A stretch of 13,354 nucleotides of DNA from a bacterium (GTDB lineage Bacteria > Thermosulfidibacterota > Thermosulfidibacteria > Thermosulfidibacterales > JALWSI01): positions 1-13,354 of the forward strand of contig JALWSI010000196.1 in assembly GCA_027080315.1 (NCBI GenBank), read 5' to 3'. Shown in pieces: positions 8,418 through 13,354 of this stretch. The notes beneath the pieces are model-generated. The model saw only the letters and a program-made list of their open reading frames with translations, did not search any database and was not told where the DNA came from. Numbering within the stretch: the first letter of the stretch is position 1; every line of letters starts with the position of its first letter. The translations under genes and the position numbers were made by a program.

Positions 8418-10712
8418 TTAGAATCTCCAAGTCAATCCTGTGTTCAGGATGTAAACCTCTCCATCGGTATCCTCGTAGAGGTACTCCTCCTGGTCATCGT
8501 ACCAGCGATAGGTGAAGTTGGTTGTGATGCTCAGGTTCTTCCAAACGGTCCAGTCAAACCCCACGGTAGCATCCACGCGCTCCATCTCTAAATCGTACCA
8601 GTCAGACATGCCATCCATGTCTCCCGTGTAGGTTATGACAAACCATGGATCGTTTGTAGGGGTGTAGCTGGGTCCCACATGACCACCAAGATCAATGGTG
8701 TCAAATGGATTGCCAAAGTGTGGATCATCAGCATCGGCCTTGGAATAGGTGTAGGTTATATCACCGAAGAACCTGAGGTTCTCGTTAACAGTATAGTCGG
8801 CGCTTAAGTAGGCCACCACATTGTGAATATCATAATCAACCTTGTCACAACGTGAGCCAACCTGGCTCACAAAACTGTGGCCGCCTCACCCGCCAAAGAG
8901 GTTTAAGTCAAACCTGGTCTCATAGGTGTTGTACTCGTAACTGGCCCCCAGATTCACAAAGAGCTTGTCAATGGGAGAGAGCCAGAAGTTGATACCTGCA
9001 ACATAGGTGTTGCCCTCCCAGTCAGAATCGTCGTTCTTCTCGTACTTGTACTGGAGATTTAAAGTGGCAGAGTAACGGCCATTGGGGCTCCAGGTGGTGA
9101 CCAAGGTGATATCGTGGGTGTCCTCGGGCACGTTGCTGGCATCTTTGGTGCGATACTGGTTTCTGAAGACCTCGTAGTAGGGAACACCACCGGGCTTGGG
9201 TAGATCCCTATGATCCATGCAGATACCGTTGTGGTTCTCAAACTCGTCGTTCTGGTGCTCGTACTTGTAGGTGAGTCTGAAGTTCACATTGTTTAAAGGC
9301 CTGCCCAAAAGGCTCAGTTTAACCTTGTGAATAGAGGTATCCTCATCATCCAGGAACTGGTCGTCCTGAAGCTCGGGGTTGTCGTAGTCTTTCCAGTCTT
9401 TGTGATCGCGGCTTATCTTAGAGTACTCATAGCCAGCTCTGAGGGTGTAGTGCTTGGCCAGCTTGTAGCGGAAGTTGGCCCCCAGCTCAGTCACGTCTCT
9501 GTCCAGATTAGACTTACGCTCGTAGTTGAAGTAAGAGGGAGGAACCCCATACCCAGGGCCTGTAACCGTCTCATCGTTGGAGAGCTCACCTATGTTCACG
9601 TACACATCGTCGTTATCAATGGTGTAGTAGCGTCCTTTAAGAGTGACAGTAAGGGCATTGTTCAGCATGGTTGAGGTCACCCTGGCTGCATAGGCGTCAA
9701 GGTCGTACTCCTTGTTGGTGTAGTTGTTCTCAACATTGCTGGAAACATAGCTCCCAAAAACCGTGGTGTGGTAAGGAAGGTCAACTCTCAGTTTGAACTT
9801 ATCGGTGTCTTTGCGCATATCAGGCACTTCGGCATAGCCACCACGCTCACCGTCAAACATGAGCCTCTGGGGGAAGAAGGTCATCTCTTCCTCAGGAGCA
9901 TACACCTTATCAAACTGCCATTGGGGAGTTTCAGCGTCGTTGTCAAAGTGACGCCAGGTGTGGAAGTAGCTTGCAGTGACAATCCCGTACTTGGCGGTTA
10001 GCCCTGCAGTCACCTCTCTGGTGTGCTCGTTCACCCTGCGGCCATTGCCGATTATATGACAGGGAGTGCACTTTCCAGACATGAAGGTGGCCTGACGCCA
10101 TCCCCTCTTGTTCTCCTGCTTCACCCTAACCTCTGGGGTGATGTAGGGGAAGAAGGGAAGCTGCATCTTGAAGGTGGCCTTCTGGGTGCTACGCATGATC
10201 ACGTAATCCTTACCAGGATCCATATCATCTGCAGTTACCATCTGGGCACCACCAAGCCTTAGCTCAGGATCAGTCCTCCAGAAGGGGTTGAAAGCAACCA
10301 TACCGTTGTTCACCCCGTTTCCTGGGATGTTCTTGGGAAACCTGGGCTCATCCTTGTAGAGGTTGTCGTGCTGAAGTCTGTGAAGGAAGCTATCGTAGGC
10401 ATAATTCATGCGAATCACCCTGCCCAGATCCAGATAGCCCGACCACTCCTTCTCGTCTCCGTCATAATAGTACCCATGGCCGCCAAAGGCGAAATCTCCT
10501 ACCACTGCGTCAATATCCACATTGGCATGGGCACCAGAGGAGAGAGACTCGTACTCGCCAACCTTGGTCATCTCGTCGTTATGGCCAATGAAGTGGTAGC
10601 CCACAGAGACATTGGACTTAAGAGACTTCTCAACATCCTGGGCCTTAGCCACTCCCGCCATTACGAAGAGGGAGACAACCAGAATAGCAATAATCTTCCC
10701 GTGTCTAATCAT
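8418..10712 (-). CDS. MtrB/PioB-type outer-membrane beta-barrel with in-frame TGA (candidate selenoprotein)
   Basis: Outer-membrane porin expected to sheathe the decaheme cytochrome encoded just upstream and form an electron conduit. A signal peptide (MIRHGKIIAILVVSLFVMAGVAKA, cleavage before QD) is followed by alternating aromatic strands typical of a large barrel, and the chain ends in WRF, the usual barrel-assembly signal. Residues 215-219 are CTPCH, a c-type heme motif inside the porin. After residue 608 there is an in-frame TGA (8888-8886). The frame continues for 155 codons with the same strand pattern, giving 764 residues if read through, within the range I would expect for the family. 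Directly after the TGA lies a SECIS-like hairpin, so residue 609 may be selenocysteine, with C498 and C622 as possible partners. If not recoded, the gene is a truncated barrel lacking its C-terminal strands. The ATG has AAAGGAGG 9-10 nt upstream and lies 16 bases after the cytochrome stop. Confidence 0.82.
8846..8879 (-). promoter_or_regulatory. Candidate bacterial SECIS element after the in-frame TGA
   Basis: Read on the minus strand, 6 bases after the TGA (8888-8886), the RNA can fold as follows: lower stem CACAG/UUGUG (5 bp, one G-U), asymmetric internal loop UUUU against G, perfect upper stem GUGAGCC/GGCUCAC, and apical loop AGGUU (8863-8859). The apical loop starts 22 bases after the TGA. 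Known bacterial SECIS elements sit immediately downstream of the UGA with a G (often GGU) at the start of the apical loop about 16-37 nt away; the Escherichia coli fdhF loop likewise begins AGGU. The match in position, loop and bulge is clear in the sequence; binding of SelB is inference. Confidence 0.6.
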
Positions 10713-10728: not shown

Positions 10729-11787
10729 TTACCTAGTTAGTCTGCTGCCACCACCCGGTGCAGACAGGGAGGGCAGATCTGAGCCGTGGATAGAGGGGTG
10801 ACACTCGGTACACCTGCTGGTCATGATCTTCTGCATTGAGTGTCCATTGGGCATGGTAGCAAGAGGCCCTTTAGCTCCATTCTGCTTCAACCAGTCGGTG
10901 TTAGGCTGGATGGCAGAGTGGAAGTGAAGACCATGGCACTGTATGCAGAGGTAGGGCTCGTTCTGCTTCAGCAGGTTGTCTGCAACACTACCGTGGGGAT
11001 CGTGGCAGATGGTGCAGTCCTCTTCCACCGGAGCATGCTCAAAGGCAAAGGGGCCCTGCTTGTCAGCGTGACACTCAAAGCATAGCTCGTTTTTACGCTC
11101 GTCGGTTCTAAGTAGGGGCTCTACAGTGGAACCATGGGGGTTGTGGCACTCCGAGCAGGTCATTTTACCCTCTTTGATGGGGTGATGGTTGGGGTAGTTG
11201 GTCTTGGCCATGATGTCTTTGTGACAGGTGAAGCAGAGCTCGGGCTCGGGCTTTTTCAACTGGGTGTCCTTCACATGCTTGTGTTTGTACCCCAACTTGT
11301 CTCTGTAAGCCTCTGCATCCTTTTTACCGTGGGGATCGTGGCAGTTGAGACAGCTCACATCGTTAAGGGCGTGCTCAGAACCGCGCCAATCCATAACCTC
11401 GCCATCGGTGTGACACTTAAGACATATGGCAGACTGCTGCTGGGGAGACAGATTAGCAGGATTGATGATGTACTCAGGATCTTCCTCGTCAATATGTTTA
11501 CTTGCGGGACCGTGACAGGCCTCGCAGGCACCACCCTGGGCCATATTGGCCTTAAGCTCAAAGCCGGCAAGCTTGCCATGAATAGTATGCTTAAAATCGT
11601 TCACCACATCCTCATGGCAATCAGCACAGGCCTCAGAGCCCACATAGGTGGCCCCCTCAATCACTGGAAGCTTGGCCGCGGTGCTCTGCTCTTTGGTCTT
11701 CTCCATGGAGGTACATGCACCCATGGCTACCAATGCGAACGCCGCAAAAGCCATCAGCCACAGCGCTCTGAATGACCTCTTTCCCAT
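10729..11787 (-). CDS. Decaheme c-type cytochrome, DmsE/MtrA family, probable lipoprotein
   Basis: A 352-residue cytochrome with exactly ten CxxCH motifs, beginning at about residues 54, 88, 122, 146, 185, 211, 236, 258, 281 and 326. Several are followed by a DPHG or NPHG His-supplying motif, as in DmsE/MtrA-type decaheme proteins. In Shewanella-type systems this protein threads through the MtrB barrel and carries electrons between periplasm and cell surface. The N-terminus is a signal sequence ending AFALVAMGAC-TS, with C25 in a slightly degenerate lipobox. That suggests a lipid-anchored protein, whereas classical MtrA is soluble. The ATG at 11787 has GGAGAGG 5 nt upstream and is preferred over a GTG at 11793. 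The barrel gene starts 16 bases downstream, so the two form an operon. The neighbouring divergent ahbD would help supply heme. Confidence 0.95.
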   Translation of the reverse strand: MGKRSFRALWLMAFAAFALVAMGACTSMEKTKEQSTAAKLPVIEGATYVGSEACADCHEDVVNDFKHTIHGKLAGFELKANMAQGGACEACHGPASKHIDEEDPEYIINPANLSPQQQSAICLKCHTDGEVMDWRGSEHALNDVSCLNCHDPHGKKDAEAYRDKLGYKHKHVKDTQLKKPEPELCFTCHKDIMAKTNYPNHHPIKEGKMTCSECHNPHGSTVEPLLRTDERKNELCFECHADKQGPFAFEHAPVEEDCTICHDPHGSVADNLLKQNEPYLCIQCHGLHFHSAIQPNTDWLKQNGAKGPLATMPNGHSMQKIMTSRCTECHPSIHGSDLPSLSAPGGGSRLTR

Positions 11788-12164
11788 TCTCACCTCTCCT
11801 CTCTCAAATATGGGATTTCACAACTCTATCCATCTTATCAGGTACTTCACATTGACTCATCTCAGAAGACAACTATCAGCTCCACTCTATCGTCTCGCTA
11901 CCACCTCCTTTCTCTACTCATCATCCCGCTATATTCGCATATTCTAATATACTAACCACTTAAAACCCTCAATTTAACCTGCGCCACACTGTTCGTGGGA
12001 ATTACCTGAAGCCGTGGCTATAGTCAACCCTTTTTCCATAGGTTTTCACAATAAAAGCCGCCGTTATCACCTAAGACTCTGAGAAGTTTGTGAAAAATGC
12101 CACTAATTTTTATCCTCAATTTAGGGTATGGCCAGAAAAGAACCAACGCCCTATATTCAAAGGC
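11788..12164. promoter_or_regulatory. Divergent intergenic region with candidate cytochrome promoter
   Basis: These 377 bases separate the cytochrome operon (minus) from the membrane-protein/ahbD pair (plus). On the minus strand, TTGAGG (11972-11967) followed after 17 bases by TATTAG (11949-11944), in AT-rich surroundings, is a possible sigma-70-type promoter. It would leave an untranslated leader of about 150 bases. The leader contains ATAGTTGTCTTCTGAG (11876-11861), a 15/16 match to a sequence upstream of the MCP-like gene, and an unused AAAGGAGG. I see no riboswitch, tRNA or convincing small gene. No clear plus-strand promoter for the ahbD side is evident; if the small membrane protein starts at 12090 instead, the region is 75 bases shorter. 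Confidence 0.35.
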
Positions 12165-12461
12165 ATGGAAACGGTGATTGGAATATCGGTGTTCACCCTG
12201 CTTTTCAACATCCCCTTTGGTTATTGGAGGGAGGGAACAAAAAAGTTCTCCAAGGGATGGTTTCTGGCAGTTCATCTGCCTGTACCCTTCATTGTGGCGG
12301 CTCGTCTCGGATTTGGAGCATCATGGAAATGGATTCCCCTTTTTGTACTCTCCTTCTTTTTGGGGCAGTGGATAGGAGCTCAGATACGCCGTAAAATGCA
12401 GCAGAGCCGCGAAGATCTCTCGCTGTGCATGGTGATGGACATTTTAAGGAGTAGGGAATGA
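12165..12461 (+). CDS. Small membrane protein of unknown function upstream of ahbD
   Basis: A 98-residue protein with three hydrophobic segments: about 4-20 ([18 protein letters not shown]), 36-53 ([18 protein letters not shown]) and 58-76 ([18 protein letters not shown]). It ends in a basic cytoplasmic-looking tail. The [23 protein letters not shown] stretch looks conserved in style, with charged loop residues between helices, but I cannot assign a function. The frame is open upstream to a GTG at 12090, which would add 25 hydrophilic residues. Neither start has a good ribosome-binding site; I chose the ATG because the hydrophobic domain begins there. Its stop overlaps the ahbD start as ATGA, so it is co-translated with ahbD and may assist heme synthesis or export. 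That role is inference. Confidence 0.65.
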
Positions 12462-13354
12462 GCAATCAGGAGTGGATTCCCAAGTGGATCGCCTGGGAGA
12501 TCACAGGCAGGTGCAACTTAAACTGCATCCACTGTCGTTCTGCGTCAGAGATGAACACCCCCGAAGGAATCTTTGATCTTCCCAGGGCCAAAGCCCTCAT
12601 TGAGGAGTTTGCATCTTTTGGTTCCCCTGCTGTAGTCCTAACCGGTGGAGAGCCTCTGCTTCGGGAGGATCTGTTCGAAATAGCCGCCTACGGCACAGAG
12701 AAGGGGTTACGCATGTGTCTGGCCACCAATGGCACCCTGCTTAACTCTGAAACCTGCAGGGGGATAAAGGAATCGGGAATAAAGATCATCTCTCTCAGCT
12801 TAGACGGTTCTACGGCGGAGGTCCACGACGACTTTCGGAAACAGCCAGGGGCTTTTGATGCCACGGTGAGGGCAGCTAATCTATTAAGAGACGAAGGGAT
12901 TCCTTTCTTGATCAACTCCTCTTTCACTAAGAGAAACAAGGACGACATCCCCAATGTGTACGCCAAGGCAAAAGAACTCGGAGCCACAGCATGGTATCTC
13001 TTCATGATCGTTCCCGTAGGACGGGGAGAAGATGTGATGGCAGAGCTCATTGACAAGGACGATTACGAAAAAATCTTAGAGTGGCACTACGAGCTTGAGA
13101 AAAGGGAAACAGAGATGCTGGTTCGCCCCACCTGTGCCCCCCATTACTACCGGGTCTTTGACCAGCTTTCTGAGCGGGATGGGGAGAACGCCCCCAAAAG
13201 GAGGACCCTGAAGTTTTCTACAGGAGGAGCCAAGGGCTGTGTGGCAGCCCAGCTCATTGCCTTTGTGGGAAGCGACGGCGAGGTGAAACCCTGCAGCTAC
13301 TTCCCCTTATCGGCAGGCAGCCTCTTGGAACAGAGCTTCAGGGAGATATGGTAT
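12458..13354 (+). CDS. ahbD: AhbD-like coproheme decarboxylase, radical SAM (partial)
   Basis: Radical SAM enzyme of the siroheme-dependent heme pathway found in sulfate-reducing bacteria and archaea. AhbD decarboxylates the two propionates of Fe-coproporphyrin III to vinyl groups, giving heme b. The 299 visible residues include the cluster motif CNLNCIHC (C19, C23, C26), the SAM-binding GGEP (63-66), ISLSLDG (111-117) and [10 protein letters not shown] (181-190). They also include TCAPHYYRV (225-233), which I associate with AhbD, and the start of the C-terminal auxiliary-cluster region (KGC at 259-261, VKPC at 276-279). The AhbD assignment over AhbC or the NirJ relative rests on the N-terminal [20 protein letters not shown] context and the TCAPHYYR motif. 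The gene runs off the right edge before the last cysteines. AAGGAG lies about 8 nt before the ATG, which overlaps the upstream gene stop. Confidence 0.85.

Follow-up and report, generated by a model that had tools for sequence, protein, structure and literature searches.

Evidence for selenocysteine at an in-frame UGA in an MtrB-like outer-membrane barrel of the GSU2204 family

Does a TGA codon within an outer-membrane barrel gene end the protein early, or is it read as selenocysteine (Sec)? The question arises in a 13,354-nucleotide stretch of bacterial DNA (contig JALWSI010000196.1 of assembly GCA_027080315.1; hereafter the window), in which a minus-strand gene starts at an ATG at 10712, runs for 608 codons, meets a TGA at 8888-8886 and then stays open for another 155 codons to a TAA at 8420-8418. 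The encoded protein ends in WRF, directly before the TAA. An outer-membrane barrel is an unusual kind of selenoprotein, and the one in the window appears to be part of an extracellular-respiration conduit. The initial annotation had proposed a Sec-containing MtrB/PioB protein here, and its coordinates, codon counts, TGA position and WRF terminus were all confirmed on the sequence. We consider it very probable, taking the whole reading together, that the gene encodes a full-length GSU2204-family selenoprotein with UGA as Sec609, which would form an MtrB-like barrel and probably a conduit. We read the codon as Sec609 because the TGA is conserved, a SECIS hairpin covaries, the Sec machinery is complete and the fold needs the part downstream of the TGA. 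Sec decoding at the UGA and the barrel fold are both strongly supported by these sequence-based analyses. The features are collected in Table 1.

Table 1. Positions and supporting evidence of the features of the barrel gene and its upstream neighbor in the window
Feature	Position	Strand	Basis
Full selenoprotein gene (GSU2204 family)	8418..10712	minus	764 codons, translated through TGA
In-frame UGA, read as the Sec609 codon	8886..8888	minus	TGA in 14/14 homologues
Putative export signal, ~24 residues, ends AKA	10641..10712	minus	helix 4-21 in model; MIRHGKIIAILVVSLFVMAGVAKA by inspection
CXXCH heme c-binding motif C215-T-P-C218-H219	10056..10070	minus	C215, C218 conservation and model strands
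bSECIS hairpin, 7-bp stem GUGAGCC/GGCUCAC, loop AGGUU (8859-8863)	8852..8870	minus	fold and covariation
GSU2203-family (DmsE/MtrA-like) decaheme c-type cytochrome	10729..11793	minus	NF041028, 459 bits (cut-off 325)

The interrupted frame and its conservation

The TGA is the sole interruption of the 764-codon minus-strand frame. The remaining two frames of the gene contain 37 and 58 stops, and the probability that the 155 codons after the TGA would stay open by chance, calculated from base composition, is about 4e-4. A ribosome-binding site (AAAAGGAGGG) lies 5' of the ATG. For the open frame after the TGA, no ribosome-binding site of its own is obvious, which bears out what the initial annotation had stated, and no export signal was found. 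This argues against the idea that two proteins, of 608 and 150 residues, together make one barrel. A GTG at 8870 would offer the second piece a possible start, but this codon belongs to the foot of the SECIS stem described below, and the homologues all keep TGA specifically rather than any stop, so that we give this arrangement almost no credence.

As the initial annotation had suggested, we aligned the protein with homologues at residue 609. All 14 homologues, which belong to three phylum-level groups and share as little as 25% identity with the window protein, carry TGA at the Sec609 column, and no homologue with Cys in place of Sec was found among the sampled genomes. The set includes orthologues from the organism's own phylum-level group, which is represented by only nine species genomes, eight of them with a member of the GSU2204 family, and two more divergent copies (one in the same genome and one in G007). 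A scan of genome contigs recovered close relatives only; the distant homologues came from a sample of 290 genomes, which yielded four more proteins, from one phylum-level group that contains both G104 and G242 and from another that contains G283. Each of the four again has TGA at the Sec609 column. Searches of the phyla around G242, G104, G283 and G145 gave no additional TGA homologue. Independent named assemblies stand behind five of the homologue genomes. Very distant barrel relatives that lack the TGA (L051 and L056) have Gly/Ser, not Cys, around the Sec site.

The two parts of the gene also evolve alike. By the Nei-Gojobori method, dN before and after the TGA was similar in every pair, and dN/dS between the window gene and its G002 counterpart was 0.086 before the TGA and 0.076 after it, with equally low values wherever dS was unsaturated. 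Judged by these substitution rates, purifying selection acts equally on the gene before and after the TGA. A lone TGA in an otherwise open frame is what a mutation in a decayed gene, or a base-calling error at a sense codon, would look like, but its presence in every homologue and in several independent assemblies, with purifying selection on both sides, makes either origin extremely improbable.

Recoding signals and the genetic code

Downstream of the TGA, we located a hairpin that was absent from the earlier reading (8870-8852); its AGGUU loop starts 22 nt 3' of the UGA, and the GTG at 8870 forms the foot of its stem. According to the published limits for bSECIS elements (PMC13188914 Fig. 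2), the loop has 3-9 nt with a G within its first two bases and lies 16-37 nt past the UGA, the stem has 4-16 bp, and the MFE is <= -7.5 kcal/mol. The hairpin of the window gene (AGGUU, 7 bp, 22 nt and, by constrained folding, -16.6 kcal/mol) lies within all of these limits. A plain fold of the 57-nt region surpassed dinucleotide shuffles by a moderate margin only (z -1.65); the hairpin was therefore assessed by covariation and against a null of synonymous recodings.

For the null, the protein was kept fixed and codons were redrawn from local usage, with 60 recodings per gene. For the window gene, 0/60 recodings were as strong as the observed hairpin, and the same held for five other homologues; overall, the hairpin exceeded this null in the majority of homologues. 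The signal was weak in a few homologues, with 14, 8 and 7 of the 60 recodings as strong in G104, G008 and G003, respectively. Across the 14 sequences, four of the seven stem pairs show compensatory changes and 84% of cells pair. The covariation score was reached by none of 500 shuffles (the sequences are related, and the counts are not independent), and shifting the partner by 1-3 columns reduced it to less than half. An Rfam search at the hairpin gave no meaningful match.

The genome check that the initial annotation had proposed found SelA, SelB, SelD and tRNA-Sec all present: the three proteins scored 631, 376 and 378 bits, respectively, and tRNA-Sec, on contig C237, scored 83.5 bits, all above cut-off. 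The SelA and SelB genes adjoin on contig C208, and the SelD gene is on contig C61. This SelD gene (L061) has an in-frame TGA of its own; from its sequence, the selenium donor SelD thus seems to be a selenoprotein too, as is known elsewhere.

UGA might instead stand for another residue, such as Trp or Gly, throughout the genome, or a near-cognate tRNA might read it with no selenium involved, and by inspection the Gly-rich flanks of residue 609 might tolerate Gly or Trp. However, two neighboring genes end at TGA, Trp is encoded by TGG, and no internal TGA occurs in the other window genes that were checked, so that the code is standard. Together with the full set of sel genes and the covarying SECIS with its loop AGGUU, this makes a reading without selenium very improbable. 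In the Sec609 reading, the ribosome would decode UGA 8886-8888 as selenocysteine by means of SelB, tRNA-Sec and the downstream hairpin.

Barrel fold and the decaheme partner

The window protein matched the NCBIfam model NF041027, named 'GSU2204 family CXXCH-containing (seleno)protein', with 517.3 bits (cut-off 350) over residues 12-608. The profile stops at 608, one residue before Sec, and the post-TGA piece searched alone matched no NCBIfam model. The second copy in the genome (L060) scored 414 bits against NF041027. Against the MtrB/PioB models PF11854 and TIGR03509, the window protein gave no match over the curated cut-off; the second copy reached PF11854 with 34.4 bits (cut-off 23). A sequence search of solved structures returned no match.

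Two AlphaFold models (mean pLDDT 65 and 69.5) show a 26-strand barrel, for which the best solved match in Foldseek was MtrB (6r2q_B, E 3.9e-18). The same MtrB chain was the best match in VIA-align, with Z 24.1 and 26.3 for the two models and about 17 (17.6) for the next row. The alignment with Z 26.3 covers 577 residues at an rmsd of 3.5 and spans residues 28-764, so that the predicted fold includes the post-TGA part, in agreement with the MtrB-type barrel of the initial annotation. In the model, a product ending at residue 608 would have 21 strands; strands 22-26 would be missing, as would the terminal Phe. We propose that the 764-residue precursor would be exported and would then fold as the 26-strand MtrB-like barrel; if translation stopped at the UGA, the remaining 21 strands would have no C-terminal insertion signal, and barrel production would thus depend on selenium.

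The gene directly upstream of the barrel gene encodes the decaheme cytochrome, and the order is repeated in L033. In L062, from another phylum-level group, a gene with ten CXXCH motifs is likewise directly upstream of the barrel gene. From the fold and the neighboring gene we infer a conduit function: the barrel would probably sheathe the decaheme cytochrome, and the pair would form an electron conduit across the outer membrane. No MtrC-like extracellular cytochrome was found beside the pair, either in the window or in L033. Judged by eye, the signal sequence of the decaheme cytochrome resembles that of a lipoprotein (...AMGAC), so that anchoring at either membrane face is possible. Beside the pair, and divergent from it, positions 12458-13354 hold the start of a radical SAM gene that is closest to the heme b synthase AhbD.

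Outer loops, the role of Sec609 and related systems

Barrels of this kind have both termini in the periplasm, so that the loops after odd strands, which are the long loops of the model, would be extracellular. The CXXCH loop (213-218) connects model strands 7 (191-212) and 8 (219-242), and Sec609 lies within the loop 607-616, between strands 21 and 22; pLDDT is below 50 in both the CXXCH loop and the Sec loop (607-618). The CXXCH heme and Sec609 are predicted by the model to be on extracellular loops of the same, outer face. C215 and C218 are invariant in the 12/12 sequences that cover both positions. The distant relative L051 has CXXXCH where CXXCH would be expected.

The initial annotation had named C622 or C498 as a possible redox partner of Sec. 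C498 is kept in 9/14 homologues and C622 in 8/14, and we rejected a Sec-C622 or Sec-C498 pair as a general rule because neither cysteine is universal. Each of the 11 main-type proteins has exactly two cysteines among positions 498, 602 and 622, and all three combinations occur; the three divergent copies lack every one of these cysteines. This distribution fits a separate disulfide better than a Sec-Cys pair: it looks like one disulfide near the Sec loop that has moved its ends over evolutionary time, and it suggests, in these 11 related sequences, that Sec609 is unpaired.

We propose that Sec609 works where the conduit opens to the outside, either as a redox contact or as a ligand. Alternatively, Sec may be real but take no part in electron transfer, and instead either gate the synthesis of the barrel by selenium or have a structural or metal-ligand role; this view contests only the last, inferred step of our explanation. 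The model lends it some weight, since a stop at the UGA would remove five strands and the C-terminal Phe and selenium supply would then gate the conduit; moreover, the distant relatives without Sec have Gly/Ser. The invariance of Sec, with its neighborhood of G608 and G611, suggests a chemical role instead, and we regard the alternative as possible but rather unlikely. Returning to Sec609 as a participant in electron transfer, a bolder and distinctly doubtful form of the proposal is that the barrel contains its own outer exit: one heme and the selenolate on the extracellular loops would replace an MtrC-type outer cytochrome, with Sec609 either ligating a heme or metal or contacting external acceptors, and with selenium gating the conduit.

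The selenoprotein family as such is not new: NCBIfam and two reviews have already catalogued it, one from 2022 that lists an 'MtrB/PioB family outer membrane beta-barrel protein' among selenoproteins (PMC9312934) and one from 2026 that lists the GSU2204 family with NF041027 (PMC13188914). These entries agree with the initial proposal of Sec in an MtrB/PioB protein. Zhang and Gladyshev 2008, the source given by the reviews for the GSU2204 family, do not mention it in the main text. In the literature searched, we found the family as a line in review tables only and no paper on the role of Sec in its barrel. The window protein adds a member to this catalogued, so far unexplained family. It shares with GSU2204 of Geobacter sulfurreducens the single CXXCH and the adjacent GSU2203-type decaheme cytochrome, and differs in coming from a little-sampled phylum-level group and in having a second copy in the same genome.

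Compared with MtrB of MtrCAB (6r2q_B), the window barrel has the same fold over its whole length and a decaheme partner gene, but it is only 13% identical and has its own heme motif and Sec. The porin:cytochrome conduit OmcKL, from Geobacter and HotSeep-1 (PMC10553843), is likewise a pair of cytochrome and barrel, the likeness to HotSeep-1 being by description; the text of that paper, which describes the conduit in HotSeep-1, does not mention selenocysteine. OmcK is GSU2203, and hematite and magnetite up-regulate GSU2203 and GSU2204 (PMC4070692). Since OmcK is GSU2203, the window pair is, by analogy, very probably the same conduit as OmcKL. ExtKL, a multiheme cytochrome selenoprotein of Geobacter (PMC5877670), is also a predicted exported selenoprotein within an electron-transfer gene cluster; it is a cytochrome, whereas the window protein is a barrel. 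The predicted structure of the window protein would place Sec and heme on one outer face and tie completion of the barrel to UGA decoding, which makes a selenium dependence of extracellular electron transfer directly testable in Geobacter.

Further genes of this type occur in the same genome and in G104. The second GSU2204-type selenoprotein barrel of the same genome (L060:3456-6074, contig C116, minus strand; 31% identity) has its own TGA, an AGGUU hairpin and a Cys-rich insert. The 13-kb L062 (G104 contig C166) carries two GSU2204-type selenoprotein genes, one of each subtype, and one of them sits behind a decaheme cytochrome gene.
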